Positions 1 through 16,557 of a stretch of 64,000 nucleotides of DNA are shown here, in pieces (position 1 is the stretch's first letter; each line of letters begins with the position of its first letter). This DNA comes from Corynebacterium freiburgense (lineage in GTDB: Bacteria > Actinomycetota > Actinomycetes > Mycobacteriales > Mycobacteriaceae). The stretch covers positions 2,480,001 through 2,544,000 of the forward strand of contig NZ_CP047355.1 of assembly GCF_030408815.1 (NCBI RefSeq). Reading direction: 5' to 3'. The translations under genes were made by a program, and so were the position numbers. A model generated the notes under the pieces. That model saw only the letters and a program-made list of their open reading frames with translations. It did not search any database and had not been told where the DNA came from.

Positions 1-168
1 AGTCTTATGCAGATCACCAAGGCTATTGAAAGACGAAGTTCCGACCCATCCAAAAATACCCCCACCAGTGATCCTGATGGGGGTAATACTGTGGGCCCTG
101 TGGGGCTCGAACCCACGACCTACGGATTAAGGATTAGGCGTGTCTTACACGGGGTCAGGGCAGCATAG
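1..168 (+). CDS. 3' end of an upstream regulator-like gene read into the att site (partial)
   Basis: An open frame enters from the left edge in phase 1, passes through the 73-bp att repeat and stops at TAG 166-168. Its att-encoded part (TPTSDPDGGNTVGPVGLE...) is in the same frame as the end of the regulator at 13789-14118, but the residues before it (ITKAIERRSSDPSKN) differ. The likely reading is that a second integrated element lies left of the window and that its regulator also ends in this att. Its present last 12 residues (RIRRVLHGVRAA) come from the prophage side of the junction. The start is outside the window, so the family cannot be named. It could also be a degenerate remnant. Confidence 0.5.
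   Translation, partial: SLMQITKAIERRSSDPSKNTPTSDPDGGNTVGPVGLEPTTYGLRIRRVLHGVRAA
58..130. repeat. attL: attL: 73-bp direct repeat, left prophage junction
   Basis: These 73 bp are identical to 14023-14095. They hold the 3' part of the tRNA-Lys sequence plus the GC-rich hairpin beyond it. After ...GGATTAA the two copies diverge: ggattagg here, aagtccgc at the right copy. The complete tRNA gene is at the right copy, so this is the partial, element-generated copy next to the integrase gene. Confidence 0.93.
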
Positions 169-180
169 GTTTAACCTATG
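164..180. promoter_or_regulatory. 17-bp perfect palindrome before the integrase start
   Basis: CATAGGTT-T-AACCTATG has 8-bp perfect arms around one base. It covers the TAG stop of the att-spanning reading frame and ends 3 bases before the integrase ATG, where a ribosome binding site would normally be. It could be an integrase or Xis arm site, or an operator for int. The half-sites AGGTT/AACCT recall DtxR boxes, but the spacing is wrong. Confidence 0.45.
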
Positions 181-183
181 TAA

Positions 184-1002: not shown

Positions 1003-2147
1003 GTTGGTGGGGTGCGCCAGATGGCGTTGACGGTGTGGGTGGTTTCGGTGGTGGTGACGGTGAGGGTGCCGCCGATGACGGTGAAGCAGGGGGGTGCGCC
1101 CATGATGGTGGCGATGGGGTCGCCGGCGATGCTGATGCCGGTGTGGAGGTCTTCCCATGGCAGCCAGCAGTACCTGTTTTCCCACCACGATGGCGCAATA
1201 AGTCGATCGGAGAATGTGAATTTTCTTGAGCCCGTGACCTGCAGCTTCCAGAGTGCGGTCATATCCTCCTTGTAGTCTGTGGTGTATACACCGTAGTCTG
1301 AAATGATTTTCATCACAGGACCGTGTCGGTCGGCGCGGTCGATGTCGATGATGATATGTCGTTTGGGCCCGATGACTGCGCCGGAGTTTTCTACCCAGAT
1401 TAATTTTGTTCGGTGCTGGGGTCCGACACGGGCGGCGGCGGTGGAGATGACGTTGGTGGCGGGGAGTTCTGTCAGCCCACCCCAGGTCAGGCCGCGGGCG
1501 GCGCACGTGGATACACGCAACGTTTGATAGTCCGGTGACCAGCACGGATAGCTGCCCATGGGACGGCAAATCGATGCCTCGAGCCATTGGCGGATGGTGC
1601 GTTTTTCTTGCTTGTGGGATGCGGGATACAACTCCGGGTTGCCACTGACGGTGTACGCGCTGATGCCCAGGCGCGGCCGACCCTTTTTAATCAACCACTC
1701 GTTAATCATGGTTTTAGCATTATGAGCTTTCCGATCCCTCGGAAAAACATCAGGGGTGAGCCGGAAAATATCCTCATAATCAGTAGCTTCGATTGCGCGG
1801 ATCAGCACGCGGCCGCCGTCCTCTGGCGGGTGGTTTGGGGTGATTTCCACCTCATCGACGTACCCCCGGAATACCGGGACAGTTTTGGGTTCTTTCGTTT
1901 GAGTAGTCGGCGTGGGAATATTCAGGTCAACCACTATTTTTTTGCGCATAAACTCTACGGCCGCACGCAGATCATCAGCAGAATCTGGGTAGTAAAGCTT
2001 GAGTGTGGCGGTGCGCGAGCGTGGTGGCTCGTTGAGTTCTTGACGCCCCCACGTCGTGGAAAACCCGGCAATCTCATAAAGTGGGATGCGCGTCCCCGCA
2101 ATTGACACGCGCAAACCCCGCGCCAGCGGTGATCGTTGTTTTACCAT
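999..2147 (-). CDS. Phage tail-tip / minor tail protein
   Basis: A 382-residue protein encoded last in the leftward virion operon, overlapping the tape-measure stop by 7 bp. The N-terminal half (ARGLRVSIAGTRIPLYEIAG, then FRGYVDEVEITP) has the beta-rich pattern of siphovirus tail-associated proteins that follow the tape measure, and there are no transmembrane segments. It is the only candidate for a baseplate or receptor-binding protein in the element. Function is inferred mainly from position. Its end overlaps the integrase stop, leaving no space between the virion and integration modules. Confidence 0.6.
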   Translation of the reverse strand: MVKQRSPLARGLRVSIAGTRIPLYEIAGFSTTWGRQELNEPPRSRTATLKLYYPDSADDLRAAVEFMRKKIVVDLNIPTPTTQTKEPKTVPVFRGYVDEVEITPNHPPEDGGRVLIRAIEATDYEDIFRLTPDVFPRDRKAHNAKTMINEWLIKKGRPRLGISAYTVSGNPELYPASHKQEKRTIRQWLEASICRPMGSYPCWSPDYQTLRVSTCAARGLTWGGLTELPATNVISTAAARVGPQHRTKLIWVENSGAVIGPKRHIIIDIDRADRHGPVMKIISDYGVYTTDYKEDMTALWKLQVTGSRKFTFSDRLIAPSWWENRYCWLPWEDLHTGISIAGDPIATIMGAPPCFTVIGGTLTVTTTETTHTVNAIWRTPPT

Positions 2148-4168: not shown

Positions 4169-4322
4169 TGTTGATTTCCTCTACCACGGCGACCGCAGTC
4201 GCGATCATCACATCATCGCAGGTGAAAAAATAGTCAGGGGCGACACCCCACGCATAGGCCAGGCGCATTAATTCCCGGATGGTGGTGCCCCGGTCGTAGG
4301 GTCCGGCATCACCTCCGGAGCA
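4161..4322 (-). CDS. Frameshift extension of the tail assembly chaperone (T part)
   Basis: In the -1 frame relative to the 95-residue chaperone, the sequence is open from 4322 to a TAA at 4163-4161. It encodes ...TIRELMRLAYAWG and CDDVMIATAVAVVEEINNG, the pattern typical of the T domain of G-T tail chaperones. The segment has no start of its own, and its stop overlaps the tape-measure ATG. A -1 ribosomal shift between about 4322 and 4268 would give a G-T product. I do not see a textbook XXXYYYZ slip site, so the exact shift position is open. Confidence 0.6.
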   Translation of the reverse strand, partial: CSGGDAGPYDRGTTIRELMRLAYAWGVAPDYFFTCDDVMIATAVAVVEEINNG

Positions 4323-4555
4323 TCATCGGCGACCAGGTCGGCGACGGTTTCGATCCATGTGTCAAAGTCCAGGGTGGTGGCGTGGGTGCGGTTGAGTGCG
4401 GCCCACGTCCAGTACGACATCCCGAGAAACGGTGCGTCCTGAAATGAGGGCCAGCCCATCCGGGCACGATGCATATCAAACCGCACTTGGTCGGGGGTCA
4501 TGACCTTCGCGGTTTCGGTCGTACCGTCGGAATACGTCACTGTGATTTTTTTCAT
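4268..4555 (-). CDS. Tail assembly chaperone (G part)
   Basis: A 95-residue protein (MKKITVTYSDGTTETAKVM...) directly upstream of the tape-measure gene, the invariant position of siphovirus tail assembly chaperones. It contains WPSFQDAPFLGMSYW and ends in a flexible Pro-rich tail, inside which the -1 frame takes over. Chaperones of this type coat the tape measure during tail assembly and are absent from the virion. Assignment rests on position, size and the overlapping frame. Confidence 0.7.
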   Translation of the reverse strand: MKKITVTYSDGTTETAKVMTPDQVRFDMHRARMGWPSFQDAPFLGMSYWTWAALNRTHATTLDFDTWIETVADLVADDAPEVMPDPTTGAPPSGN

Positions 4556-4561
4556 TGGTGG

Positions 4562-4975
4562 TTAAGCTCCTTCGATGGTGTTGAGAATGTTCTTGACGTG
4601 CTCTTCGTAGAGGCGAAGCCATGTGGGTTCAGTTTTTTGGGCTTGCTCTGCAACAAACGGGTTTGGTGTGATGTTCCGGGCAAACCAGCCCCAGTGGATC
4701 GGCCCGGCGTAGGGCACGCTTTTCGCGCCAAGGCGGATACGTGCCCCGGTCTGGGTGGAGAACACTGTGAGCGTGTCTTTGAGTCTGCGAACGCGCGCGC
4801 GTTTTGTGCGCGAGCCTACTGGTGCGACAGCCACAGATGCGGTTTTGACGATTTCACCGGCTGATTTGTTGACCGCTTTGAGTTGTTTCATGTCGATGCC
4901 AGCGCGGCGGAGTGATGCGCGCAGTTGCCGGGCACCTTCGATTTCTACATGGCCGGGTGCTCCGGCGTAGCTCAT
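4562..4975 (-). CDS. HK97 gp10-like head-tail joining protein
   Basis: A 137-residue basic protein with VEIEGARQLRASLRRAG at the N-terminus, a KTASVAVAPV segment and VPYAGPIHWGW, all characteristic of the HK97-gp10 / neck-protein family that joins or completes the tail. It overlaps the preceding gene by 4 bp. It lies after the major tail gene rather than before it, which differs from the usual HK97-like order. Confidence 0.7.
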   Translation of the reverse strand: MSYAGAPGHVEIEGARQLRASLRRAGIDMKQLKAVNKSAGEIVKTASVAVAPVGSRTKRARVRRLKDTLTVFSTQTGARIRLGAKSVPYAGPIHWGWFARNITPNPFVAEQAQKTEPTWLRLYEEHVKNILNTIEGA

Positions 4976-5412
4976 GGCGTGATCCCGTTGACTTTCGTGG
5001 CTGGGGTGAATGTGGGTTCACCGATGAAATCCAGCTCGATGTTGGTAGTTCCAGCTTCCCCGACCTTGCCCCCGACTTCTGGCGGGTCAAGGCGAACCGT
5101 GCCTTCGAATTTGCCACCATCGGTGGTGTTGGGAATGAACTCGATTTTCTCAGTGGTGCCTTTTTTCGACCACAAATACCCAACGATGCCTTTAACGGTG
5201 AGGTTTTGCACACATGTGAGTTTCAACTTATAACTATAGGTAGTTGCCTCGGCGGCGACATCACCTGATAGGAGTTGGATTTCCGAGCCGGCTTTCACCG
5301 ATGGTGCGATGGTTGCGGCGGACACCTCGGCGGAAAAGTTCAATCCGGCGGTGGATTGGCCAAGCACAATTTTGCCGGGCCCAGTGGTAGCAATTTTAGT
5401 GTTGACTGGCAT
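4972..5412 (-). CDS. Major tail protein
   Basis: A 146-residue acidic, Thr/Gly/Val-rich protein with alternating beta-strand pattern (KIVLGQSTAGLNFSAEVSAA, TYSYKLKLTCVQ, GTTNIELDFIGEPTF) and no membrane segment, typical of the subunit that polymerises into the siphovirus tail tube. It lies between the connector genes and the chaperone/tape-measure genes. The assignment is from composition and position. Confidence 0.65.
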   Translation of the reverse strand: MPVNTKIATTGPGKIVLGQSTAGLNFSAEVSAATIAPSVKAGSEIQLLSGDVAAEATTYSYKLKLTCVQNLTVKGIVGYLWSKKGTTEKIEFIPNTTDGGKFEGTVRLDPPEVGGKVGEAGTTNIELDFIGEPTFTPATKVNGITP

Positions 5413-5421
5413 GGATAGCTC

Positions 5422-5763
5422 CTAGTGTGGGGGTCGGATGGTGAGAGAGAATGCAGGGCAGACCTCCCCGCCGGGGAGGGTGACGGTGGTCCCCAGGTCG
5501 GTGTCAACGACGTTGCCGCTCAGCACGTCCAGTGCTGTGGTGAGCATCTTTTCTAGCACGCCGATGGCCGCCGGGATATCTGTTTCTGGGCTAATAAGAT
5601 GAATCCCTATCTCAATAATGTTTGTGCCGTCGAGACGGCGGCCGAGCCAGCGGGTAGCATGCACCCACGCACACGGTGGATGCAGACATAGCGGGTCGAT
5701 ATCGGCCGGGATGCCCGCATTTTGGAGTGCGGTCGTAATGTCAGTGAGGCTGTCGGTAATCAT
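5422..5763 (-). CDS. Tail terminator-like protein
   Basis: A 113-residue protein (MITDSLTDITTALQNAGIP...) with an N-terminal helix, then IIEIGIHLISPETDI and a central VLEKMLTTALDVL helix. This resembles the tail-terminator / minor tail U-like proteins that cap the tail tube. It lies 14 bp from the upstream connector gene and before the major tail gene. No catalytic motif is expected. Moderate confidence, from position. Confidence 0.5.
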   Translation of the reverse strand: MITDSLTDITTALQNAGIPADIDPLCLHPPCAWVHATRWLGRRLDGTNIIEIGIHLISPETDIPAAIGVLEKMLTTALDVLSGNVVDTDLGTTVTLPGGEVCPAFSLTIRPPH

Positions 5764-5777
5764 TGCAGTAACGGTAG

Positions 5778-6101
5778 CTAGGCGACGATGATGTCTCGGT
5801 GGCGCCCAAGGTTCAGCAATGCCTCGATATCGGGATCGTATTTCGCGACATAGCTGGGACCCAGTTCACCGATAGTTTCCACCCCGGAGGGGCTGGCGCG
5901 GCGTCGCCATAATCGGGCGGCGAGCATGTGCGCGCCACGGCGGGTTTTCGCACTGTCCCATTGGGACGCCGGGACCCAGTCAGCGACCAGGTCTACGACT
6001 GCGTCGATGACGTCGGCGAGGTCAGCGTGATAGTCGCCGCTGAGTTTGAGTTGGGCGGCAAGCTTTTCGGCATTGATGATGCCTACTGGTCGGTTGGTCA
6101 T
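5778..6101 (-). CDS. Head-tail connector (gp6-like adaptor)
   Basis: A 107-residue, mostly helical protein (INAEKLAAQLKLSGDYHADL, DVIDAVVDLVADWV, HMLAARLWRRR, YDPDIEALLNLGRHR). This is the signature of small adaptor proteins that bind the portal ring after packaging. It overlaps the capsid stop by 4 bp, as such genes normally follow the capsid. Confidence 0.7.
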   Translation of the reverse strand: MTNRPVGIINAEKLAAQLKLSGDYHADLADVIDAVVDLVADWVPASQWDSAKTRRGAHMLAARLWRRRASPSGVETIGELGPSYVAKYDPDIEALLNLGRHRDIIVA

Positions 6102-7555
6102 GCGGTAAACTTCACCAACTTTAGGCCCTTGGGTTGCTCAACCAGTGTGGCGCGATAGCCGAACACGCCTTCATCGGTGGCACCTTTAGCGACGTTGAGT
6201 GCATCGACGCGGATCGGGCTGCCTGCTAACTCCCCGTGGCGGATGGCTGGTTTACACCACGCCAGGACTTTCCCTTTGCCGATCAATGGAGTTGGTTTCA
6301 TCTGGGCCGGGGTAATGCCAAGCATTTCCAAAAACGCTGGTAATTCTTTTTCTTTGACATCGATCAAATTAAACCAATCCATGTCATTGACGACATACAC
6401 ATCCGGGTCGATATTGGTCGCAGCATGGATCGTGTGCCGCGCCCAGCCGCAGGCTTTAAACAGCGACCATTGCTTTGCAGATTGATCATCCTCGGCACCG
6501 GCACCCGCAAGCGCATCAGCCAGGGCTTTTTCGTCGGACTTTTGCGCATAGGATTCCGCCATGGCTGCGAAGTATTTGGCGATGACATCGACTTGGTGGA
6601 AATGGATGTGCTCGATCGGCAGCTGGTTCGCGCCCGCCAATCGGGTGGCCTCAACTTCGACGAGTTCGAATTCAGCTTTAGTTGACGAGACTTCAGCGGG
6701 ATGCCCAGCGTAGTCGGCGACCTCAGGTTTGGTTTTCCAGCGCACGCCTTGCATTTTCAACCCCGTGAGAGTGTCTTGCCGCATGGCCGGGATAAATTTC
6801 CGCTGGTAGGTGACGCCTTCCCAAAGCTCACCGACCCAGTTCGGCGCGAGCCCAAGTGGGGATTTCGCGACCTGCAATGATTGCAGTGCCGCGGTGAGCA
6901 TAGTCGGCTCGGCGGTGGGATCATCCAGGCGGGCAAGCGCATCGTAGATCGCAGAGCAGCTGAGTTCGACTGGGCGCGGTGTGGCGTGGATGCCGCCGGG
7001 GGCTGCGGCCGGGCCTGCGCTGGCGGTGACAGTCTCGGCGGTGGGGGTGTCATTATTCATCGTGGTGGTCTCGGTTGGGTCGGGTGTGGTATGGGAGGCG
7101 GTGATACTGGTGACACGGGCGCTGGAGAACGCTGGGATCGCCACCAACGCGACTGACATCAGTGTCGCCGCAGTAATTGTGTCACCGTCAAATTGGGGTT
7201 CGAGCAGTTCGACCGATAGCGCATCGCGCACTCCTTCGCGGATGTCTGCGCTGGCAAGATCGCCATCCGGGGTTCGGGCAAGATGAAATTTTGCGTACAA
7301 ACCAGCATCGGTGTCGGTAAGTTCCAGGGCGTAGCCGACCGGTTGCCAATCTGCTTGAGTTGAGTGGTTTCTCAACAATTTAATATGGCGAAGATCATCG
7401 GGGATGGTGATCGCCCCACGCGCGACCTGATAGTCTCCGGCGCTGGTCATGCCATGCTGATTCCACGGCAGGATAAGCCCTTCAACGATGCGTGGGGCAG
7501 CGTCGGCGTCAGTGCAGGTGGTGGCAGTCAACAGTGCGTTAGTCTGCAGAATCAC
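6098..7555 (-). CDS. Fused prohead protease and major capsid protein
   Basis: A 485-residue single frame. Residues about 1-145 look like an S78-type prohead protease: IVEGLILPWNQHG, a His in LLRNHSTQADW and a Ser in DALSVELLEP. A Thr/Pro-rich linker (about 150-195) follows, then an HK97-fold major capsid domain (about 200-485: VTYQRKFIPAMRQDTLTGLKM, ends GYRATLVEQPKGLKLVKF). In most phages protease and capsid are separate genes; here the protease would release the capsid domain during maturation. The start overlaps the holin-like gene by 17 bp. Confidence 0.82.
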   Translation of the reverse strand: MILQTNALLTATTCTDADAAPRIVEGLILPWNQHGMTSAGDYQVARGAITIPDDLRHIKLLRNHSTQADWQPVGYALELTDTDAGLYAKFHLARTPDGDLASADIREGVRDALSVELLEPQFDGDTITAATLMSVALVAIPAFSSARVTSITASHTTPDPTETTTMNNDTPTAETVTASAGPAAAPGGIHATPRPVELSCSAIYDALARLDDPTAEPTMLTAALQSLQVAKSPLGLAPNWVGELWEGVTYQRKFIPAMRQDTLTGLKMQGVRWKTKPEVADYAGHPAEVSSTKAEFELVEVEATRLAGANQLPIEHIHFHQVDVIAKYFAAMAESYAQKSDEKALADALAGAGAEDDQSAKQWSLFKACGWARHTIHAATNIDPDVYVVNDMDWFNLIDVKEKELPAFLEMLGITPAQMKPTPLIGKGKVLAWCKPAIRHGELAGSPIRVDALNVAKGATDEGVFGYRATLVEQPKGLKLVKFTA

Positions 7556-7808
7556 GGTGGCGCCCCTTTTTTTCTCGTGGTTCAGCAGCCAACCACGGCA
7601 TGTAGGTTTTCATCCATGCCTCCGTAGCAGGGTGAGCAAGAATACGGGTGATCGTAGCGATCGTGGCGAGGGTTGCCGCCACCCATGGAATGGATTCAAT
7701 GCCAAGTTCTTTGGCAATGATTGGCAAAATCGGGCCGATGCCAATGACAGCGGCGACCAGGGTGCGGATCGTGGCGCGGTTTGGATGTTTCACTTGTGTT
7801 GGTGTCAT
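7539..7808 (-). CDS. Holin-like small membrane protein
   Basis: An 89-residue protein with two hydrophobic segments (about 14-33, TLVAAVIGIGPILPIIA, and 40-58, PWVAATLATIATI) and a charged Lys/Arg C-terminus (EPREKKGRHRD). This is the topology of phage holins, which permeabilise the membrane to release the lysin. It lies just downstream of the lysin gene and a 36-residue membrane ORF, with ATGA overlap to the latter. Confidence 0.65.
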   Translation of the reverse strand: MTPTQVKHPNRATIRTLVAAVIGIGPILPIIAKELGIESIPWVAATLATIATITRILAHPATEAWMKTYMPWLAAEPREKKGRHRDSAD

Positions 7809-7915
7809 GGTTGTACGGGAGCAGGATCAGGGGCAACAACCGTAAGCAGTTGCCGGACGGCAAAGGTATTCACCACAGCGGTGATGGTTAAGGCAACAAG
7901 TTCGATGACGGTCAT
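7805..7915 (-). CDS. 36-residue membrane peptide in the lysis cassette
   Basis: The ATG at 7915-7913 overlaps the lysin stop (ATGA), and its own TGA overlaps the next gene's ATG (ATGA again). The product MTVIELVALTITAVVNTFAV... has one hydrophobic helix (about 4-27) and a short Pro-rich tail. Double translational coupling argues that it is real. It may be a second holin or antiholin component. No homologue is recognised. Confidence 0.6.
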   Translation of the reverse strand: MTVIELVALTITAVVNTFAVRQLLTVVAPDPAPVQP

Positions 7916-8769
7916 GGTTTTGCAGAAAACCCTTGCACTTCAAGGGCTTCACCAATGGCGGCCAAGGCATCGACGACGGTGCGCCCGCCGAGCTGCGGCC
8001 AGCCGGCGAATGTGTGGCCATGGGCATCGCGGCCCGGCCCGGCCAACTGGTCAAGGATCAATGAATCAATATCTGTGCGCATAGGTTCACTTTCTTCCAT
8101 CGGTGAGGTGGTGCCATAGAACAGGGCATGTAGTTGTTCTCTGGTGCCACGAAAAGCATTGATATCAACACCTGAATTTCCGCCGCGCCAGCTTCCAAAT
8201 CGCGCTTCTGAGCTAAATTGCCACAACGCTGGCTGTTGGTTGCCCAATGGGTAATTCCACTGCCTGTGGCTATTTCCTGGATAAATATTTTTTGGCGGGC
8301 CCGGGGTATTGGTTCCATAAGCGGCGACCCAAAATGCACCGAACTCATGGCTATCTGGCTCATTTGGTGAAATTTTATGCTCCCAATAGGGAACATATGA
8401 ATAACACCCGATGACACGAACACCAGCTTGCTCGAACAGTCGCTTACATTCGCGGATGTGATCGACGTGGATGCCTGCGGGGGTTTCCACATCAATCCAC
8501 ATTGGGCGTTGCTGGTTTCCCATAACCTCAAGGGAGGCTTGTACCTGGGCCGCAATACTCGATCCTTCACGAGGGTTACGCAAATAGTGGTATGCCGACG
8601 TAATCAGGCCAGCTGCCTCGGCGTCTGCCAGATGCGACTGGTAGACCCGGTCACGGTGGATGCCATCAGTAGTACGAATGATGGCGAAATCCAGGTCCGA
8701 CTCGCGGGCGGCCTCGACGAGGCTGAGACCGTTTTGCCACTCAGAGACATCAACGCCAAAAATAGTCAT
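7912..8769 (-). CDS. Endolysin, glycoside hydrolase family 25 lysozyme
   Basis: A 285-residue protein. The N-terminal GH25 muramidase domain (about 1-205) begins FGVDVSEWQNG, carries MWIDVETP with the catalytic Asp/Glu pair, and has the typical WQFSS and VDINAF motifs near its end. The C-terminal part (about 225-285: LILDQLAGPGRD, GWPQLGGRTVVDALA) looks like the short repeat-type tail seen in actinophage lysins. There is no signal peptide, so a holin is needed. Its place between portal and capsid, rather than after the tail genes, is uncommon. It overlaps the portal stop by 4 bp. Confidence 0.88.
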   Translation of the reverse strand: MTIFGVDVSEWQNGLSLVEAARESDLDFAIIRTTDGIHRDRVYQSHLADAEAAGLITSAYHYLRNPREGSSIAAQVQASLEVMGNQQRPMWIDVETPAGIHVDHIRECKRLFEQAGVRVIGCYSYVPYWEHKISPNEPDSHEFGAFWVAAYGTNTPGPPKNIYPGNSHRQWNYPLGNQQPALWQFSSEARFGSWRGGNSGVDINAFRGTREQLHALFYGTTSPMEESEPMRTDIDSLILDQLAGPGRDAHGHTFAGWPQLGGRTVVDALAAIGEALEVQGFSAKP

Positions 8770-9851
8770 TGGTTCTCACTTTCAATTTCAACATGTGGGT
8801 TAGGCGCGGGTAGGGAACGATCATCAGGCACAGTGAGTGCAGCGATATCGGCGGTGGCCTCGCTGGTATCGACCCTGAGTGACACACCACGGGGCACAAT
8901 GTCGTCCATCCCCAGTCGGGCGGTGACCGCTGAAATCATCGGGGCGATGCCAAAGGTGATCAGCTCGGCCATCCTGGCTTGAGTATTGGAATACGACAAG
9001 GAGGTGCCGGAGAGGGTGGCATCGATCATCGCGGCCGGGATCGAGCACAGTCGCGCCAAGTCAACCGCAACCGCGTTGCGGCCCTCAACCAACAGGTGTT
9101 CTTTGATGCTGCCGTGTTCTTTCACTTCAATGCCTGCTGAAGTGAATGCGACCCCACCATCGCGGCCTTTCCGGGCACGAATCCAGCTTTGTTTCAGCTC
9201 GGCGACTTTTTCCGGTGTCAACGGCTTATCACTGGTTTGATGCAACTCGGTGGTGTGGGCTGGGGTTTCTACTGCGCGCCGCACCCCACGAGCAAGCGCG
9301 AGTGCTTCCGGGATGGTGGTTTTCCCCAGTGCAAGAATGCCCTCATGAATCCCAGGGATCAGGATATGGGTTGCGGCCGCAACCGGCGCCCCATCGACTA
9401 GGACACGATCCTCGGCATCAAATGCCCAGGCATCGTATGGGACCCGGTCAGCGGTGAGCACATGACCTGAGTAGTCGCGGGTGACCCGCCACAGTGACCA
9501 GCCGTAAAACAGCAGATCGTCGATGGTCCACAACATCCGGTGATACGGGCTGAGCAGCCCATCAGTGCGGGAAATCCATGCGGGTTGGGCATCCAGGTCT
9601 GTGCCGTTTCGCACCGCTACGATCGGGAGCCGAGCGCAGGTAGTGCAAATAAGGTTGCGGGCGCGCAGCAGTGCAGGAATCGTGAGGGCCGCGTCACGGG
9701 TAATACCATGCAATGACACGTCATCGAGATCGTCACCAATGAAACTCAGGGACTCCAACCTGGGGTGCTCAGACAAAGACGAAGTGGGCGCGGTCATCGC
9801 GCGCAGCGCCCGAAATGCATCCATCATGCCCATGGATGCATCATTGACCAC
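8766..9851 (-). CDS. Portal protein (HK97 family)
   Basis: A 361-residue protein with the usual features: PALLRARNLICTTCARLPI near residue 80, the LLFYGWSLWRVTRD stretch, and GTSLSYSNTQARMAELITFGIAPMI in the crown/clip region (about 285-315). It forms the dodecameric ring through which DNA is packaged. It is somewhat shorter than common HK97-like portals (about 400). The frame starts with GTG at 9851; an ATG seven codons in (9833) is an alternative. Confidence 0.87.
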   Translation of the reverse strand: MVNDASMGMMDAFRALRAMTAPTSSLSEHPRLESLSFIGDDLDDVSLHGITRDAALTIPALLRARNLICTTCARLPIVAVRNGTDLDAQPAWISRTDGLLSPYHRMLWTIDDLLFYGWSLWRVTRDYSGHVLTADRVPYDAWAFDAEDRVLVDGAPVAAATHILIPGIHEGILALGKTTIPEALALARGVRRAVETPAHTTELHQTSDKPLTPEKVAELKQSWIRARKGRDGGVAFTSAGIEVKEHGSIKEHLLVEGRNAVAVDLARLCSIPAAMIDATLSGTSLSYSNTQARMAELITFGIAPMISAVTARLGMDDIVPRGVSLRVDTSEATADIAALTVPDDRSLPAPNPHVEIESENQ

Positions 9852-9892
9852 ACTGATGGTTTTCCGCTGAATCTATAGAACACGCTGGGGTT

Positions 9893-11338
9893 TTAGTAAA
9901 TTTCTGGTTCGATGTCTTCGCGGTAATTCTGGGCACCAATCATCGCCAGTGTCGCTGCCTCCAACGGAGCAATCGACCCGACCGCTGCACGCCGATCCCA
10001 CACCCAGGAATCACCAACCCGACGACGAGCGGCGATATCAGCGGCGGCGTCCAATGCCGGATCGGGGCGTATCTTGATCTCCGGGGCAAACATGCCATCA
10101 TCATCAATGTGCATCAAGCGGGTCAAAAAATCACCACACCCCGCCGCCAGCGCCCGAAACGTGATTTTATTCACATGAATGCCTTTGCGGTCCAGTTCAG
10201 CAGCAAGAGCATCTGCCGGGCCGATCGGGTCAATCCATACCTGTGCGCCGTGGGCTTCACACAGTTCATTAATTCGTTCCACCGCCCACCGATATCCGGG
10301 GCGTGCATCAACAACTTCAACCATTGGTTGCGAGGCCACGATGGAAGCAGTAACAATAATGGCGGTATTACGATCAGCGGCGACAGCTACGCCGAACGCC
10401 ACTGGCGCATCAGCTGGAATCGGGTCGTCACTGGATGCCATCTCCCATGCTTCAATGGGGATCAATCGATCTCGGGTATGTGTTTCACGATTACCGTAAG
10501 CCCTAGCAAACTCATTAACCTTACCACCCATTTTCTTCCACGCAGCCTGCAACGACTCCACCGACTGGGTGAACCCAACCGCAGGATGCGCCGCAGCGAC
10601 AACAGCAATATCGCTGGCATCGTCATCATCAGCAATGCCCCAATCCAGCAGCGCCACACCTTCCTTCCCCACACGGGCCGCCTCAACCTGATCGTGAAAC
10701 CATGTACTCGCCGCCGTCCCACGAGTCGAGACCAAAATGACTTGCGCACCAGGGCGAGTGGACTGGGTCGGGGTAATTGCCTGCATCAGCGCTTCACCTT
10801 CAGCTTGGTCGAACACCCATGCCTCATCAATCACGTTGAAGTCGCCTTGCTCACCGTGTAGCGACTCCTCTGTCGGGGGATGCGGCGCCCAGTCAGAACC
10901 ATTTCGAGGGATCAGAAAATGCTCATCACCACGAGATTTCTTCCGGTCAAACAGCTTTGATAACGGAAACGTTGGATCAAGTAAATCATTGGTGAACTTC
11001 ATCCAATTCCGCCGGGCGTGCCCGCCGGTTTGGGCGGTGGACCACACATATGACTTCGGAGCTTGCAGTGCGCGCTGGATACATGCGGCACCAATAAGCC
11101 GGGTTTTTCCCGACTGGCGCGGTACCGAAATAATCACCAGTGGCCACCGGCGCAACCCCGTGGCACGATCAACCTCACCAATAACATCCGCAGCCCACTC
11201 CTGCCATGGCATCGCCGGCGTGCCAGACCACTCCATAATCTGGCAAATGGCAGGGCCAAACGTAGGGTTAATCGTCGGCCGAGGCGTGGCGAATCGTGGG
11301 GGTGCTGAGCGCTGCAAGGGCTTGGGTAATGGCATCAT
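9893..11338 (-). CDS. terL: Terminase large subunit
   Basis: A 481-residue packaging ATPase and nuclease. The Walker A-like VPRQSGKT is near residue 73 and Walker B FNVIDEA near 166; the C-terminal RNase H-like nuclease has acidic residues in VAVAADRNTA, WIDPIGPADALA and DPALDAAADIAARR. The N-terminus (INPTFGPAICQIMEWSG) is typical of the Terminase_1 family. The assigned start overlaps the small-subunit gene by 71 bp, so a later start is possible. Confidence 0.9.
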   Translation of the reverse strand: MMPLPKPLQRSAPPRFATPRPTINPTFGPAICQIMEWSGTPAMPWQEWAADVIGEVDRATGLRRWPLVIISVPRQSGKTRLIGAACIQRALQAPKSYVWSTAQTGGHARRNWMKFTNDLLDPTFPLSKLFDRKKSRGDEHFLIPRNGSDWAPHPPTEESLHGEQGDFNVIDEAWVFDQAEGEALMQAITPTQSTRPGAQVILVSTRGTAASTWFHDQVEAARVGKEGVALLDWGIADDDDASDIAVVAAAHPAVGFTQSVESLQAAWKKMGGKVNEFARAYGNRETHTRDRLIPIEAWEMASSDDPIPADAPVAFGVAVAADRNTAIIVTASIVASQPMVEVVDARPGYRWAVERINELCEAHGAQVWIDPIGPADALAAELDRKGIHVNKITFRALAAGCGDFLTRLMHIDDDGMFAPEIKIRPDPALDAAADIAARRRVGDSWVWDRRAAVGSIAPLEAATLAMIGAQNYREDIEPEIY

Positions 11339-11609
11339 CGGCGTCAGTATTTCGAGCAGAAGGGATCAATTTCATTTCCCGAAGCAATTCCATATACGGC
11401 CCAGATAATTGGGCAATCGCATAGTACTTCCGATCAGCTTCGGCTTGGTCCAAAGCGCGGGCATTCGCCCGAGCCAGCGATACTGCCGCCTCGTCGAGGG
11501 TTTCGAGGTAACCATCGCGGCGAGCTTGGGCGATCGCAGTCTCAAGCATTTGGGCGTGTCGGTCACCGGTCGGCACATCAGCCGGGGTAAACAGCGCGGG
11601 TTGGTTCAT
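11268..11609 (-). CDS. terS: Terminase small subunit
   Basis: A 113-residue helical protein (DRHAQMLETAIAQARRDGYL, ANARALDQAEADRKYYAIAQL, YMELLREMKLIPS) immediately upstream of and overlapping terL. This pattern, with a conserved region before LREM, fits P27/actinophage small terminases that recognise the packaging site. Function is inferred mostly from position. Confidence 0.7.
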   Translation of the reverse strand: MNQPALFTPADVPTGDRHAQMLETAIAQARRDGYLETLDEAAVSLARANARALDQAEADRKYYAIAQLSGPYMELLREMKLIPSARNTDADDAITQALAALSTPTIRHASADD

Positions 11610-11650
11610 GGCAAAACTTTTTCCGTTTCGGGGGTTATGAGTGAAAACAA

Positions 11651-11683
11651 GGGGGGAGGGGGGAGGGGGGACGCCCCCCGGGG
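11651..11683. other. G-run / C-run tract beside the terminase genes, candidate cos site
   Basis: Three G6 runs (11651-56, 11658-63, 11665-70) are followed by ACG, C6 and G4. The 140-bp gap between HNH and terS (11610-11745) holds only this and no convincing gene. Actinophage cohesive ends are often GC-rich and lie just upstream of terminase, next to HNH genes, so this is the best candidate for cos. The tract can also form a hairpin (GGGGG-acg-CCCCC) or a G-quadruplex. Confidence 0.35.
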
Positions 11684-11745
11684 CACAACGGGGAGAGATT
11701 TTCCGGCTGGCGCGGGGCTTCCCCGACCTCGGCTTTTATAAAAAC

Positions 11746-12018
11746 TCACCATCGGCGACTCGGCGGCAGAGTTTTCCCAGGTCGCACTGGGTATTTCGCG
11801 AACCACATATCAAGCGGCATATCACGGCGGGCTGAATTGCAACTGGCGTGCGCCGGACGAAGATTCTCGATCGAATCATCACCACCAGCCGAACGAGGCA
11901 CCACATGATCGGCTGTGTCAGCACCATCACGCAAGCACAAATGGCAGATCGTGCCGTACGTCGCCAACGTCAACACCCGCAGCCGCGACGCAGATCGCCC
12001 ACCCCAACCAGCCATCAC
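11746..12018 (-). CDS. Phage HNH endonuclease
   Basis: A 90-residue protein with the complete HNH core: CHLCL zinc Cys pair, ADHVVPRSAGG with the catalytic His, ENLRPAHASCNSARR with Asn/His and the second Cys. Free-standing HNH proteins next to terminase genes are required for cos cleavage in HK97-like phages. Its ATG overlaps the WhiB-like stop by 4 bp, and it lies upstream of the candidate cos tract. Confidence 0.85.
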   Translation of the reverse strand: MMAGWGGRSASRLRVLTLATYGTICHLCLRDGADTADHVVPRSAGGDDSIENLRPAHASCNSARRDMPLDMWFAKYPVRPGKTLPPSRRW

Positions 12019-12500
12019 AGCACCTCACACTCAGCCTGCGCGCGCGATACCCGCCCCCTATCCCGGCGGGGTGCAGGATGGGCAGGGGCGGGGTGGGTCC
12101 CCCTCCGCCGACGCGCCCGAGCAGCCCGAGCAGCCCGAGCCGTTTGCTCCGTGACAGCTGCGTCCAGCTGCGCTGCATGCATCGCGCGCAGCGACAACCC
12201 ACTAGCCACCCCACTCACCGCAGCGATCGCCACACGATAACGCACAGACACGCCATGCGGCGGAATCGGAATACCAGCAACAATCACCCCACCAATCGGC
12301 GGCGCAGGCAACGACAAGGCATAGGTAGCACACGCACGCAGCAACGGACAGCCGCCACACAACTGCGCAGCACGCTCGTGCAACAGGCGAGTGCGCTCAG
12401 CAAGAGACTGCTCAGACGGAAACGAAGTAGGGTAGTCCCACCACGTGGGATCAGCATCAGGAGCCGTACACGGCGTCGGCACCCCAGGAAAGATGGTCAT
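12015..12500 (-). CDS. WhiB-like Fe-S transcription regulator, phage type
   Basis: A 161-residue protein with four Cys in WhiB spacing: Cys11, then Cys48-GG-Cys51-PLLRA-Cys57 (C-x2-C-x5-C), ligands for a 4Fe-4S cluster. The usual G-[VI]-W-G-G turn is not evident (GGVIVAGIPIP instead). The C-terminal half is long, Ala/Arg-rich and probably DNA-binding. WhiB-like genes are frequent in actinophages and can modify host sigma-factor output. It lies at the head of the HNH-terminase transcription unit. Confidence 0.7.
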   Translation of the reverse strand: MTIFPGVPTPCTAPDADPTWWDYPTSFPSEQSLAERTRLLHERAAQLCGGCPLLRACATYALSLPAPPIGGVIVAGIPIPPHGVSVRYRVAIAAVSGVASGLSLRAMHAAQLDAAVTEQTARAARAARARRRRGTHPAPAHPAPRRDRGRVSRAQAECEVL

Positions 12501-12543
12501 AAGTCATGCCCTCACAGATCAATCAATACACAAGGCCTATAGA

Positions 12544-12774
12544 TCACAGCCACTCCAGGCCAAAGAGTTCGAAGGCCCAAAGGGCCCCCTTTGCTGTGAC
12601 CTCCCAGTCGCGCTTCCCAGTTTTTCCGCCTCCCGTCGTCACACCCACGACCAGTAGCCGATGGGCGATTTTGCCCACCGGCTTCCAGCTATACGCCACG
12701 CCCACACTGATCAGATGTGAGATGGCGGTATAACGCCGAGCCGTCATACGCTTTGGTTTATGTATTGGAGGCAC
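12544..12774 (-). CDS. Hypothetical phage protein
   Basis: A 76-residue basic protein (KPKRMTARRYTAISHLI..., GGGKTGKRDWEVTAKGALWAFELFGLEWL). No family recognised. It lies in the leftward early block, 43 bp from the WhiB-like gene. The basic N-terminus followed by an Ala/Trp-rich end may suit DNA or protein binding, but no function is claimed. Confidence 0.45.
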   Translation of the reverse strand: MPPIHKPKRMTARRYTAISHLISVGVAYSWKPVGKIAHRLLVVGVTTGGGKTGKRDWEVTAKGALWAFELFGLEWL

Positions 12775-12886
12775 ATACTCGGCCGCAGTTGGTTAGTGTC
12801 GAACTTGCGGGACAAACGACAGATCGGGTCGAAGTTGGTTAATGACTATTTAGTTAGTTCTTGATGCCTCCGCATACGCGGTGCAC

Positions 12887-12931
12887 CACGAGGAAACACC
12901 AACAGAACGGCAACGTTGATGTGTCCTCGTG
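12887..12931. repeat. Inverted repeat in the 190-bp gap of the phage early region
   Basis: Arms of 17 bases (12887-12903 and 12915-12931, outer part CACGAGGA/TCCTCGTG) match except at two positions around an 11-base loop. No T-run follows on either strand, so it is not a clear terminator. The rest of the gap 12775-12964 holds two AGTTGGTTA direct repeats (near 12790 and 12829) and no gene. Confidence 0.4.
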
Positions 12932-12964
12932 ACCCACCCGCACCCAGGCAGTCACAACCAGCAA

Positions 12965-13153
12965 CTAAAACAACGGCTCAGGCAACCACACTGCTAACTC
13001 CTCCCGACACCGGGCACACACATGCTCCCCCGCCCACGGACCCGACACCATCCGCGGCGGTACACACCCTTCGGCAAAATGCACACCACAAACTCCACAC
13101 CGGGTTTTCGACCGACGCGCAGGACGCCACTCAGCAGACACAGTCAGGTTCAT
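12965..13153 (-). CDS. Small zinc-ribbon phage protein
   Basis: Starting at the internal ATG 13153, the protein (MNLTVSAEWRPARRSKTRC...) is about 62 residues with two Cys pairs, CGVC and CARC, separated by 20-30 residues: a zinc-ribbon-like layout. Longer starts to 13180 overlap the upstream gene further. No function is known; such proteins are common in actinophage early regions. Confidence 0.5.
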   Translation of the reverse strand: MNLTVSAEWRPARRSKTRCGVCGVHFAEGCVPPRMVSGPWAGEHVCARCREELAVWLPEPLF

Positions 13154-13478
13154 CACCACACCCCCCATGCGACACGACATTCTGCCGGATCCGAGTCACC
13201 AACTCAGGCGGAAGATGCCCCCCAATCGGCCCATACGTCCGCACCCACGCCTCCGCAGTCTGCAACGCCTCAGCAGCAACATACCCATACGGGGCCGACT
13301 CCTCCCCATAAATCTCATCAACCACCCCAATCAAATCATCAATCCACACCGGCACAGGCGCAGGCCGAGAAGCCACCACACCATCCGATTTCCCCCCACC
13401 ATTGCCTGATAAAAAGATACATATAACCATCACGGCGATACCGGCAAGACCAACCAAAAAAGCAAACACAGACATCAC
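13131..13478 (-). CDS. Hypothetical single-pass membrane protein
   Basis: A 115-residue protein: residues 3-24 form one strongly hydrophobic helix (VFAFLVGLAGIAVMVICIFL), then a Gly/Ser linker and a soluble helical domain (VPVWIDDLIGVVDEIYG, ALQTAEAWVRTYG) ending in a Cys-rich tail (GGCGDEPDCVC). Its start overlaps the excisionase-like gene by 4 bp. Position among lysogeny genes suggests a role in lysogeny or superinfection, which is only inference. Confidence 0.5.
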   Translation of the reverse strand: MMSVFAFLVGLAGIAVMVICIFLSGNGGGKSDGVVASRPAPVPVWIDDLIGVVDEIYGEESAPYGYVAAEALQTAEAWVRTYGPIGGHLPPELVTRIRQNVVSHGGCGDEPDCVC

Positions 13479-13663
13479 GCCACTGCCTTCCGGTCAAGCA
13501 GTTCGCGAACATCATATTCCGAAAAAATATAGGTTCCCGTTTGAGTTGAACTTTTCAAAACCGGTGCCAAAATCCCTTGCTTCACCCAACGATGAACCGT
13601 CGATCGGTTAACCCTAAATAGTTTTGCCACCTCATGCGTAGATAGCAACTGTTGCTGTTCCAT
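13475..13663 (-). CDS. Excisionase- or Cro-like small HTH protein
   Basis: A 62-residue protein from the ATG at 13663 (MEQQQLLSTHEVAKLFRVN...). It is a winged-helix HTH_17-type domain: STHEVAKLFRVNRSTVHRWVKQG is the recognition helix region, followed by the wing YIFSEYDVRELLD. Such proteins act as Xis or as early repressors. It is first in the leftward block and divergent from the regulator at 13789. A longer frame from TTG 13699 would start inside an operator-like palindrome and is less likely. Confidence 0.75.
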   Translation of the reverse strand: MEQQQLLSTHEVAKLFRVNRSTVHRWVKQGILAPVLKSSTQTGTYIFSEYDVRELLDRKAVA

Positions 13664-13778
13664 ACCATGACTAATACCAATGGATAGACTCAAGCGCAAC
13701 TGTTGCGTTTCTAATCAATTTCTTAAACTGGACTTTGGGGGCACTTTGGGGGTTGATATTGCAACAACTATTGCGTTA
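13644..13778. promoter_or_regulatory. Immunity control region with repeated GCAAC/GTTGC operators
   Basis: The gap between the divergent HTH genes (13664-13788) carries CGCAAC-T-GTTGCG (13695-13707, perfect) and GCAACAACTATTGCG (from 13761). AGCAAC-T-GTTGCT (13644-13656) lies just inside the leftward gene. ACTTTGGGGG is directly repeated at about 13732-13752. The two 13-bp palindromes share the core GCAACTGTTGC and are probably operators for the phage repressor. Confidence 0.55.
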
Positions 13779-13788
13779 GGGTGTCAAC

Positions 13789-14118
13789 ATGACAATGCAG
13801 CAACATTTCGACTTTTCAAAACTGGAATTTAATCTCGGAGATCGCCTCCGAAAAGCATTAGAGATCGCAGACCTGACTGCTATCGACATGGCTACATACT
13901 TAGACATCTCTAAATTCACCATTAGCCGCTATATCAATGGAAAAGTCCCTGTTCCATTACAGACCCTTCGCCTGTGGTCGCTTAGGACTGGTGTCCCACT
14001 GGAGTGGTTGCAAACAGGGAAAACCCCCACCAGTGATCCTGATGGGGGTAATACTGTGGGCCCTGTGGGGCTCGAACCCACGACCTACGGATTAAAAGTC
14101 CGCAGCTCTACCAACTGA
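13789..14118 (+). CDS. Phage immunity repressor-like HTH protein spanning attR
   Basis: A 109-residue protein. An XRE-like HTH lies at about 14-70 (LGDRLRKALEIADLTAIDMA, YLDISKFTISRYINGKVPVP), then VPLEWLQTGK. Residues 79-102 are encoded by the att core and the last seven (KVRSSTN) by host tRNA-Lys antisense. In the excised circle the same frame would continue instead into RIRRVLHGVRAA-stop (114 residues). The layout, divergent from a small HTH gene and followed by attP and int, matches repressor-attP-integrase cassettes in which integration stabilises the repressor. Repressor identity is inferred from fold and context. Confidence 0.75.
   Translation: MTMQQHFDFSKLEFNLGDRLRKALEIADLTAIDMATYLDISKFTISRYINGKVPVPLQTLRLWSLRTGVPLEWLQTGKTPTSDPDGGNTVGPVGLEPTTYGLKVRSSTN
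14023..14048 (-). terminator. tRNA-Lys terminator hairpin inside the att core
   Basis: On the minus strand, starting 9 bases after the tRNA 3' end, CCCCCATCAG pairs with CTGGTGGGGG and is followed by TTTTCCC: a Rho-independent terminator for tRNA-Lys. Because it is inside the att repeat, integration keeps the terminator intact. The T-run itself lies at 14020-14023, just outside the core. Confidence 0.6.
14023..14095. repeat. attR: attR: 73-bp direct repeat at the 3' end of tRNA-Lys
   Basis: Identical to 58-130. It covers the 3' 39 bases of tRNA-Lys (14057-14095) plus 34 bp beyond. Both copies are in the same phase of the plus-strand regulator frame (codon start at 14023 and at 58). Crossover anywhere in the core therefore keeps the frame. 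Confidence 0.93.
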
Positions 14119-14129
14119 GCTAAAGGCCC
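14057..14129 (-). tRNA. tRNA-Lys (anticodon TTT)
   Basis: The 73-base cloverleaf reads GGGCCTTTAGCTCAGTTGG at the 5' end (14129), the anticodon loop CTTTTAA with TTT, and GTTCGAGCCCCACAGGGCCCA at the 3' end (discriminator A at 14057). The acceptor stem pairs GGGCCTT with AGGGCCC, including one G-U pair. CCA is not encoded. It is the intact attachment gene of the prophage and is overlapped in antisense by the 3' end of the phage regulator. Confidence 0.97.
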
Positions 14130-14512
14130 TTCGTTGTGAAACAACAACGACATCATCTTAGCGGTTTCCCACACAGTTGGGAAATCGGCCTGATTTCTCC
14201 AAAAATTCGCAGGTAAACCTGGGTTTACTCCCGCCCCCCGCCAGCTAACAAGAGAGCAAGTTGAAACACGTACACTAATTTGAGGACTGTTTGGGTTCCT
14301 TTTTCGCAGGCAGATGTGACCCGCACGAATCTAAGACACCGGATTTTCCCAAAACAGCAAAATCCGGTTCTCGATATGCCTAGTTCACAGTTGTCAGAGC
14401 TGATTACTGCCAGTTTCCCAGCGTGTGGGTAACTAGATAGGGGATTTCCCGGGTGGCTCGGTTGGGTTTCCGGAGGTTTGGGCTGGTTTCCTAGGCGGTG
14501 GGCGGCCTTACG

Positions 14513-14774
14513 TGCGGTTTGATAGGCTAGCCCTATTAAACTAGTGATGTTTTTATGTCAAGTGTCGCAGATTCCATAAAATCGCCCGAAAAAATGGAAT
14601 TTGCGACAGCAACCAACATTGCGCGCAATCGTTGACCTGGGGTGTGTCGCAGATTCCATAAAAACAGTGAAAAAAAATGGAATCTGTGACAGGATCCCTA
14701 CCTATCGTGTCACAGATTCCATAAAATCCGCCGAAAAAATGGAATCTGTGACAACACGCCCAACCAGCGCCCAA
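14513..14774. repeat. Three-palindrome intergenic repeat, copy A
   Basis: It starts TGCGGTTTGATAGGCT and ends in ACACGCCCAACCAGCGCCC. It holds three stem-loops of about 46 bases at 14563-14608, 14645-14691 and 14708-14753. Each is TGTCGCAGATTCCAT or a near variant, a 15-17-base A-rich loop, and ATGGAATCTGCGACA. The third has perfect 15-bp arms. Copy B, same orientation, is at 59254-59512, with nearly identical stems and similar spacers (including CAATCGTTGACCTGGGG). No T-runs follow the stems. Confidence 0.85.
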
Positions 14775-14841
14775 AAGACTGAGCACCTCTCGGCCAGCAG
14801 CCCGAAAAGATTAAGCACCTCCCAACCAAATCCCAGGTCAC

Positions 14842-14914
14842 CACAAGCACACAACAAAACCACAAGCACACAACAAAACCACAAGCACACAACAAAACCA
14901 CAAGCACACAAAAC
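14842..14914. repeat. 19-bp tandem repeat, about 3.8 units
   Basis: The unit CACAAGCACACAACAAAAC is repeated head to tail at 14842, 14861 and 14880, with a partial fourth at 14899. Non-coding; it lies just downstream of the three-palindrome repeat. Confidence 0.85.
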
Positions 14915-15039: not shown

Positions 15040-16557
15040 TTAGCTCTTCTTCATGGTGCCGGTCTCAGCGAAGCGCTGGTGGAAGCTGAATGCGGTTGCC
15101 AGATCATGCGGGGTTTGCAGGGTCTTGCGTTCCTTGGCTAGGTGAAGTGCACGCTCGTAGTATTCTTCGAGCAGCGGACGGTAGTCTGGGTGCGCAAGGG
15201 CAATGATCTTTTCTACGCGCTGGCGTGGTGCCAGGCCACGGAGGTCTGCGTAACCGTATTCGGTAATAATGACCTTCACGTCTTGTTCGGTGTGGTCAAC
15301 GTGGGATACGAATGGCACGATCGCAGAAATAGCACCGCCCTTTGCATCGGATGGGGTGATAAAGGAGCTGATGTAGCCATTGCGGGTGAAGTCCGCGGAG
15401 CCACCCACACCGTTCATCATGCGGGAGCCGATGACATTGGTGGAGTTGACGTTGCCGTAGATATCAGCCTCGATTAGGCCATTGGTGCAGATCAGGCCCA
15501 GGCGGCGTACAACCTCAGGGTGGTTGGAGACCTGTTGTGGGCGGAGGATGATTTGCTTGGCGTACTTGGATGCCTCACGGTTCATGCGCTCTGCGTATTC
15601 CGGCGAGAGGGAGAACGACGTCGCGGACGCGACGGTCATTTTGCCTGCGTCGATAAGGTCAACCATGCCGTCTTGGATAACCTCGGTGTAGGCCTGAATA
15701 TTCTCGAACTTGGAGTCAAGCAGGCCGCTCATTACGGCGTTTGGAACATTGCCAACGCCGGATTGCATGCGGTAGCCATCATAGGTAAGGCGACCTGCAG
15801 CAACTTCACCTTCAAGGAAGTCCAGGAAGTGCCCAGCGATTTGCTTGGACTGTTCGTCGATTGGCTTAAATGGGGCGTTGCGGTCTGGAAGGTCTGTCTC
15901 TACAACCGCAACCACTTTATCTACATCAATATCAATGTAGGTGGTACCAATGCGCTGGCCTGGCTCGGTAATTGGGATTGGCACACGGTTTGGCAGCTTC
16001 TTATTGCGCCAAATGTCGGCCATGCCTTCGAGTTCTTCGGATTGCCAGGAGTTGACCTCGATAATGATCTTTTCTGCTGCGTCGAGGTATTCCACATTAT
16101 TGCCCACCGAGGAGGATGGAACGATATGGCCTTCTTCGGTAATACGCACCGCTTCAACAATGGCCACATTCATCTTGCCAAAAAAGCCTTGTTCTACATA
16201 TAGGCCAGATTCGGAAAGGTGGTAATCGGCATAGTAAGACGTACCATCATTGATTTTGTTCCGCAGGATCGGATCTGATTGATATGGGGTGCGGAAGTGG
16301 ATTGCATCAGCTTCGGCAAGAACACCGTCACAGTCCGGAGCTGTGGAGGCACCGGTAAAGAGGTCGATCATGTATTCTTCGCCGCGTGCGTGGGCCTCTT
16401 TAGCGCGGTCTGCAATGGCTGCTGGAAGTACCTTTGGGTAGCCTGCGCCGGTAAACCCGGAGATTCCTACCTTGTCGCCGTGGTTGACGAACTGCGCAGC
16501 CTCCTCTGCAGTCATGACCTTGCCGCGAAGCTTGGCGTTTGCGATCCGATCGGACAT
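15040..16557 (-). CDS. actA: Acetyl-CoA hydrolase/CoA transferase family protein
   Basis: A 505-residue class I CoA transferase (Cat1/acetyl-CoA hydrolase type) that moves CoA between acetyl- or succinyl-CoA and short acids such as acetate. It supports overflow and uptake of acetate in the cytoplasm. Motifs: GISGFTGAGYPKVLP near residue 35, IIIEVNSWQ with the predicted catalytic Glu, GVGGSADFTRNG and ITEYGYADLRGL. Length is normal. C. glutamicum has a related gene beside a dihydrouridine synthase, as here; the symbol follows that. A perfect palindrome, TGTGGTCACCACA (16670-16682), lies about 115 bp upstream. Confidence 0.88.
   Translation of the reverse strand: MSDRIANAKLRGKVMTAEEAAQFVNHGDKVGISGFTGAGYPKVLPAAIADRAKEAHARGEEYMIDLFTGASTAPDCDGVLAEADAIHFRTPYQSDPILRNKINDGTSYYADYHLSESGLYVEQGFFGKMNVAIVEAVRITEEGHIVPSSSVGNNVEYLDAAEKIIIEVNSWQSEELEGMADIWRNKKLPNRVPIPITEPGQRIGTTYIDIDVDKVVAVVETDLPDRNAPFKPIDEQSKQIAGHFLDFLEGEVAAGRLTYDGYRMQSGVGNVPNAVMSGLLDSKFENIQAYTEVIQDGMVDLIDAGKMTVASATSFSLSPEYAERMNREASKYAKQIILRPQQVSNHPEVVRRLGLICTNGLIEADIYGNVNSTNVIGSRMMNGVGGSADFTRNGYISSFITPSDAKGGAISAIVPFVSHVDHTEQDVKVIITEYGYADLRGLAPRQRVEKIIALAHPDYRPLLEEYYERALHLAKERKTLQTPHDLATAFSFHQRFAETGTMKKS

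Follow-up and report, generated by a model that had tools for sequence, protein, structure and literature searches.

Sequence evidence for integration-dependent immunity in a Corynebacterium mini-prophage inserted at a lysine tRNA gene

Broussard et al. 2013 is the founding paper on integration-dependent immunity. Our comparison system is Angel, a cluster G mycobacteriophage and a close relative of BPs; its record is classified in Gclasvirinae. The available sections on BPs describe a viral repressor that is degraded via a tag and a lysogen form that is stable and represses (PMC4557955, PMC9262239). An A135E change was reported there to stabilise BPs gp33-136 (PMC4557955). A preliminary description of the DNA studied here had given the BPs-type viral tail as ending in AA. 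This needed correction, as the 136-residue repressor of the relative Angel ends in -KAS, which fits the A135E change, and the comparison made here is with Angel, not with BPs.

Definitions of these systems rest on the repressor in the accessible text of PMC5559632 and PMC9934374. The first of these also covers the Gordonia phages of cluster CW, whose genomes are 17 kb in size and which have a tRNA-Lys attB and integration-dependent immunity (PMC5559632). Some cluster P mycobacteriophages have Corynebacterium among their computed possible hosts, according to the sections available of PMC9635641. Within the open-access literature, as far as its available text goes, we found no described case of integration-dependent immunity in Corynebacterium. 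Here we analysed a stretch of 64,000 nucleotides from Corynebacterium freiburgense (the window), in which one locus is best read as belonging, as a corynebacterial case, to the integration-dependent immunity systems already described.

A mini-prophage, its repressor gene and the excised circle

The prophage was delimited by 73-bp direct repeats and by an identical contig, C2, and lies at a lysine tRNA gene:

131-14095, complete mini-prophage, 13,965 bp with one core copy
58-130, forward strand, att common core on the integrase side, identical to 14023-14095, its frame running on into the viral tail
14023-14095, forward strand, att common core on the repressor side, in the repressor ORF and over the 3' half of tRNA-Lys
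14056-14129, reverse strand, tRNA-Lys (anticodon TTT), found with ARAGORN and intact in the lysogen

The two cores matched over 73 bp without mismatch, identity stopped at both ends, and the first repeat began 57 bp from the window start. With identical cores, the attB overlaps a tRNA gene that is left intact (tRNA-Lys, 14056-14129). Pfam and PHROGs identified integrase, regulator, portal, major tail, terminase-like and glycosyl hydrolase 25 lysin genes in 131-14095. Of the 20 window proteins compared with Pfam or PHROGs, none was recognisable as a replication protein. The prophage had no match in the plasmid collection, nor in phage records by megablast.

Several further observations concern the prophage and its surroundings. 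Two corynebacterial prophage genomes (13,965 and 13,958 bp) and the contig that carries protein P0002 (13,501 bp) are smaller than RRH1 (14,270 bp), which the available text of PMC5513430 gives as the smallest siphovirus genome reported. By eye, the core part 14023-14055 forms a GC-rich hairpin behind tRNA-Lys, and integration swaps the bases after it, altering the T-run of a possible tRNA terminator; the promoter/terminator scan gave no terminator-like site at 14023-14055. The host flank carries a 50-bp unit three times at 14562-14756 (copies 60% and 88% identical to the first; inverted ends by eye), a tandem array of 19 bp (ACCACAAGCACACAACAAA) at 14840-14911, and a CoA-transferase gene at 15040-16557 (91% identical to the C. 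choanae and 90% to the C. aquilae counterpart), which marks the host as a Corynebacterium.

The repressor gene and the integrase gene that follows it in the circle are made up as follows:

13789-14118, forward strand, repressor gene in its lysogen form, 109 aa (HTH_3, E 2.1e-7; phrog_2328 transcriptional repressor, E 2.9e-21)
131-168, forward strand, viral-tail codons (RIRRVLHGVRAA) and stop, the first codon starting at base 14095 in the circle
184-1002, forward strand, tyrosine integrase, 272 aa (Phage_integrase, E 4.3e-19), C-terminus ...AAWRIEGG

The attP core lies within the repressor reading frame, a defining trait of integration-dependent immunity. The preliminary description had placed the 73-bp core in frame inside the regulator gene; the repeats are identical and ORF 13789-14118 reads through, in agreement with this. 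Translation of the ORF confirmed the proposed lysogen protein of 109 residues with the end ...GLKVRSSTN. As had also been proposed, its end is encoded by host tRNA-Lys antisense sequence: the codons of residues 103-109 (KVRSSTN) lie opposite the 5' half of the tRNA gene. The prophage form is the shorter one (109 vs 114 aa), and its stop (14116-14118) lies within the host half of tRNA-Lys. When 14095 is joined to 131, the frame stays open and encodes a 114-residue protein that ends in RIRRVLHGVRAA before a TAG stop at 166-168; its C-terminus is ...GLRIRRVLHGVRAA, with closing residues RVLHGVRAA. Residues 1-102 are common to both forms, followed by 7 residues of its own in the lysogen form and 12 in the viral form.

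The integrase ATG at 184 stands 15 bp beyond the viral repressor stop, as predicted. Repressor and integrase therefore follow each other on one strand in the circle with a 15-bp gap, and their co-transcription is assumed from gene order; a promoter scan of 13400-14300 did no better than its shuffles. No recognisable degradation tag was present on the integrase, which ends in EGG. By eye, a perfect 15-bp inverted repeat (7+1+7) at 165-179 crosses the viral repressor stop just before the integrase. It is linked to the repressor gene only in the circle and is possibly an integrase or translation-control site.

The viral form was modelled with AlphaFold from 22 sequences (mean pLDDT 75.5). Six helices span residues 9-76, and pLDDT was <50 for residues 84-114, which comprise the tail and most of what the att site encodes, as would be expected of a disordered, accessible tail. 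A search of solved structures gave nothing useful (two Tako8 chains over 17 positions).

C2 is the second contig of the two-contig assembly, and its 13,965 bp equal the prophage length with one core. After rotation (circular permutation), it was identical to 131-14095 at 13,965/13,965 positions. It contains the recombined attP junction and encodes the 114-residue viral repressor, which by sequence carries an ssrA-like tag (...HGVRAA). The attP is thus observed in real data as well as predicted: the 14095-131 join, the 114-residue form and its AA end are all present in C2, and the attP sequence that the preliminary description had wanted checked has an unbroken frame. In addition, a database protein (P0027, 60 aa, on a 70,989-bp contig) matches what the reconstructed attB would encode in this frame: residues 1-36 correspond to the integrase-side core and host flank, and the last 26 to the lysogen repressor end. 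Both junctions and the attP are seen, and the attB is seen at the protein level. A defective att remnant was rejected as an account of the repeats, since C2 shows recombination at the 73-bp att core.

Repressor C-termini across the family

The repressor and Angel gp33 (136 aa) were 34% identical, and both belong to phrog_2328 (window repressor E 2.9e-21 over residues 14-107; Angel gp33 E 3.1e-41). The integrase was 38% identical to that of Angel and 41-43% to those of Coeur, Rahul, GMA5 and SallySpecial. A full-length repressor query matched 182/242 genomes of the genus, most listed matches covering only the tRNA-antisense end; among viral contigs, 49/50 loci matched only within residues 74-109. 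Because the repressor end is tRNA-Lys antisense, such full-length searches are misleading. Searches were redone with residues 1-79 or an alignment of residues 1-79. Residues 1-79 hit 164 of the 50,697 phage records, from phages of Mycobacterium (136), Gordonia (15), Arthrobacter (12) and Curtobacterium (1). The genome contig search gave 13 loci, 7 of which were used; six Bacillus loci with short, weak matches were dropped.

On its 13,501-bp contig, P0002 is a repressor 78% identical to ours that ends in RVLHGVKAA, vs RVLHGVRAA here. Lysogen repressors that end in GLKVRSSTN were also seen in Rhodococcus sp. 06-235-1A (L086) and in the provirus contigs L102, L103 and L110. This shared end follows from conserved tRNA sequence, and in L086 the end lies over tRNA-Lys.

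For the comparison of C-termini, 101 loci were entered, 81 of them with an HTH match at E 1e-3. The viral class (n=33 before dereplication) comprised repressors with an integrase match at most 1 kb downstream on the same strand, an assignment that rests on this match and is not proof of free-phage DNA. The lysogen class (n=35 before dereplication) comprised 20 loci with a tRNA on the repressor end and 15 whose contig is cut at the repressor stop. Five loci that run off the contig (L088, L109, L111, L114, L141) were left out, as were seven with neither an integrase in place nor a tRNA (L100, L105, L106, L119, L142, L143 and L149, ending in CRS, LVA, HRA, THE, GTI, HRA and GEP). L139 was dropped as spurious. 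AS was counted as a tag-like end because Angel ends in KAS and A135E is reported to stabilise BPs gp33-136.

The conserved viral-side tails that the preliminary description had suggested looking for were found. After dereplication within class, 26/28 viral forms ended in A or AS (20/28 in AA; 22/28 in A alone), the exceptions being L107 (EPSD) and L120 (ERRS). None of the 30 lysogen forms ended in A, AS or AA (0/20 where a tRNA was found). When the viral DNA was read in its two remaining frames, 7/56 ends were A or AS and 2/56 were AA. Since all 28 viral forms share a common descent, Fisher values for these counts are guides only. The family comparison sets viral against lysogen C-termini in a clean natural contrast.

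Within Corynebacterium, 242 genomes were searched, and nine further loci with an HTH match were followed among the matches listed. The followed set excludes L064, at a contig end, and weak HTH matches (e.g. G071:C2, G108, G189:C23 and G209). A partner att site was found for 8/9 of these loci; the contig of L167 ends before any partner. The eight prophages are:

L159, 13,958 bp, same genome as the window (C1:2371100-2391000), at tRNA-Lys(CTT)
L160, 14,663 bp, at tRNA-Lys(CTT), closest among the followed relatives
L161, 17,175 bp, at tRNA-Lys(CTT)
L162, 15,574 bp, at tRNA-Lys(CTT)
L163, 16,889 bp, at tRNA-Lys(CTT)
L164, about 15,817 bp, at tRNA-Lys(CTT)
L165, 16,908 bp, at tRNA-Lys(CTT)
L166, 34,673 bp, at tRNA-Lys(CTT), viral tail ending in IAS

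All eight have the att site in the repressor gene and use tRNA-Lys(CTT). The cell from which the window comes is a double lysogen, in which one mini-prophage occupies tRNA-Lys(TTT) and the other tRNA-Lys(CTT). An integrase match lay just inside the other att site in 7/8; for L166, an integrase-like frame was seen by eye only. Read at the integrase-side att, the viral tails of L159-L165 ended in IPA, LPA, VAA, VPA, IAA, LVA and PVA. Taken with the window and L166, 9/9 viral tails ended in A or AS and 3/9 in AA, and the P-A ends of three relatives (IPA, LPA, VPA) are not classical ssrA tails. Off-frames were also read at the att sites in the window and in L159-L165; of those that were not empty, 0/15 had an A or AS end. 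For scale, 37/234 ORFs of at least 120 aa in all six frames of the window's prophage and L159-L165 end in A. The lysogen repressors of L159-L166 ended in EPRTR, EPRTH, EPTD or GPTD, within tRNA-Lys(CTT) antisense. The integrases ended in EGG in the window and L159, and in VAS, IAS, IVS, IAS, VSA and LSS in L160-L165.

Candidate operators and the proposed switch

Upstream of the repressor lies a divergent gene, with a repeated palindrome in and beside it:

13475-13699, reverse strand, small HTH gene divergent from the repressor, excisionase/Cro-like candidate (HTH_17, E 2.3e-10)
13645-13655, candidate operator, palindrome GCAACTGTTGC within the HTH gene start, same motif in L160
13696-13706, candidate operator, palindrome GCAACTGTTGC inside CGCAACTGTTGCG, at the edge of the HTH gene
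13765-13777, degenerate third copy of the candidate operator

The HTH gene also matched phrog_66 (excisionase and transcriptional regulator, E 1e-8). Near the repressor start, GCAACTGTTGC occurs in two copies 51 bp apart and nowhere else in the window's phage. L160 has two copies 52 bp apart, with a third copy (one mismatch) 50 bp further, and the 13-mer CGCAACTGTTGCG is common to both operator regions. As a control, random region pairs of the window's phage and L160 had a 12-mer in common in 8/2000 draws. The number of GCAACTGTTGC copies in the window's phage is weak by itself, being reached by 13/200 shuffles, so that the sharing with L160 is the stronger argument for putative operators here. 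The exact motif was absent from L159, which is consistent with a different immunity in that prophage.

In the mechanism we propose, the free circle would express a repressor with the end ...RVLHGVRAA, with the integrase next to it. Recombination at tRNA-Lys exchanges the last 12 residues for 7 (KVRSSTN) and parts the repressor from the integrase. The AA-ending viral tail may act as an ssrA-like degron for host ClpXP, in which case the free phage would hold no repressor and go lytic. The integrated form would be stable, would bind the GCAACTGTTGC operators in or beside the divergent repressor/HTH intergenic region, and would keep the prophage silent. The host has one ClpX and two ClpP genes, and AENTQRDYALAA is the tag of its tmRNA (the best prediction by ARAGORN; Rfam tmRNA above cut-off). 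By analogy with BPs, we infer that degradation, stability and immunity hold here too. The BPs-like logic that the preliminary description had put forward is supported at the sequence level by the in-frame attP, the tRNA attB, the 114-residue AA form and the homology to Angel. We put the probability at about 90% that this locus serves a temperate tailed Corynebacterium mini-phage as its immunity switch and works by integration-dependent immunity.

An in-frame att could also be a coincidence of attachment at tRNA genes, with a repressor that simply runs to the next stop and two forms that behave alike. At the reconstructed attB, two of three forward frames are open across the 73-bp core, the repressor's included, so an ORF can pass through without selection, and residues 1-102 with the whole HTH domain are in both forms. 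Against this stands the behaviour of the viral tails, which differ yet converge on A or AS (26/28) where off-frames do not (7/56 and 0/15). BPs, a relative of the homologous Angel, works through its tag, according to the available text of PMC4557955, and we consider coincidence highly improbable. Alternatively, the exchange of C-termini might alter repressor activity, through oligomerisation or partner binding, instead of stability. The tails are indeed unlike in length and sequence, and the accessible parts of PMC4557955 allow the longer BPs form a possible activating role at its own promoter. The same source reports that both BPs forms bind DNA similarly and that targeted degradation inactivates the viral one (PMC4557955). 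What the viral tails have in common is their last residues, as in a degron, and an effect on activity alone seems to us scarcely credible.

The standing of C2 was considered as well. It is a contig of its own in a two-contig assembly, as might be seen if it were a circular phage-plasmid with separate maintenance, or a product of assembly. We regard this as very unlikely for a molecule of exact excision length with one core copy, a recombined junction and zero differences over 13,965 bp. Even if C2 were a separate replicon, the recombined attP junction would exist.

A further reading, which we offer tentatively and hold to be possible rather than probable, is that of a pared-down switch in a genome of <14 kb. 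The repressor tail alone would decide, the integrase would lack a degron, a host-encoded peptide from the antisense strand of tRNA-Lys(TTT) would serve as the stable tail, and two phages would occupy the TTT and CTT genes. If this were true, two lysine tRNA genes would let two phages coexist with separate immunities.

Comparison with described systems

The present data would extend integration-dependent immunity to Corynebacterium prophages. Chromosome and excised circle stand in one assembly, and both repressor forms could be read directly. A switch this small, with both forms known, would be a convenient test case and could possibly yield integration vectors for corynebacteria.

The locus resembles BPs and Angel in having the attP in the repressor gene (published for BPs) with the integrase next on the same strand, a tRNA attB, a C-terminal tag on the viral form, and a homologous repressor (34%) and integrase (38%). 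It differs in genome size, with about 41 kb for BPs and relatives such as Angel vs 14 kb here, and in the end of the viral tail (AS in Angel vs AA here). BPs loses 33 residues on integration, whereas here 12 are exchanged for 7. The attB of BPs and Angel is tRNA-Arg in the available text of PMC9262239, and tRNA-Lys here. A tag on the integrase is part of the typical system in the same text (PMC9262239), whereas the window's integrase ends in EGG without a visible tag. Because the definitions in PMC5559632 and PMC9934374 are based on the repressor, we count the system as a member, with its integrase as a point of departure. Systems of this type are further characterised by the absence of a recombination directionality factor and of arm-type integrase sites. 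The window has an excisionase-like HTH gene.

Small Gordonia phages (GMA5, GRU3 and others of cluster CW, and the similar Coeur, SallySpecial and Rahul) are alike in their 16-18-kb genomes, in a gene order in which the integrase follows the repressor (in GMA5 after an additional ORF), and in viral tails ending in AA. They differ in host genus and gave no megablast match to the prophage. In Mycobacterium abscessus, the available sections of PMC9934374 describe prophages prophiT36-2a/b that likewise have the repressor at the tRNA junction and an -AA remnant at the other att. Prophage 2a differs from the locus described here in its 40.8-kb size, its tRNA-Thr site and its tandem integration (PMC9934374).
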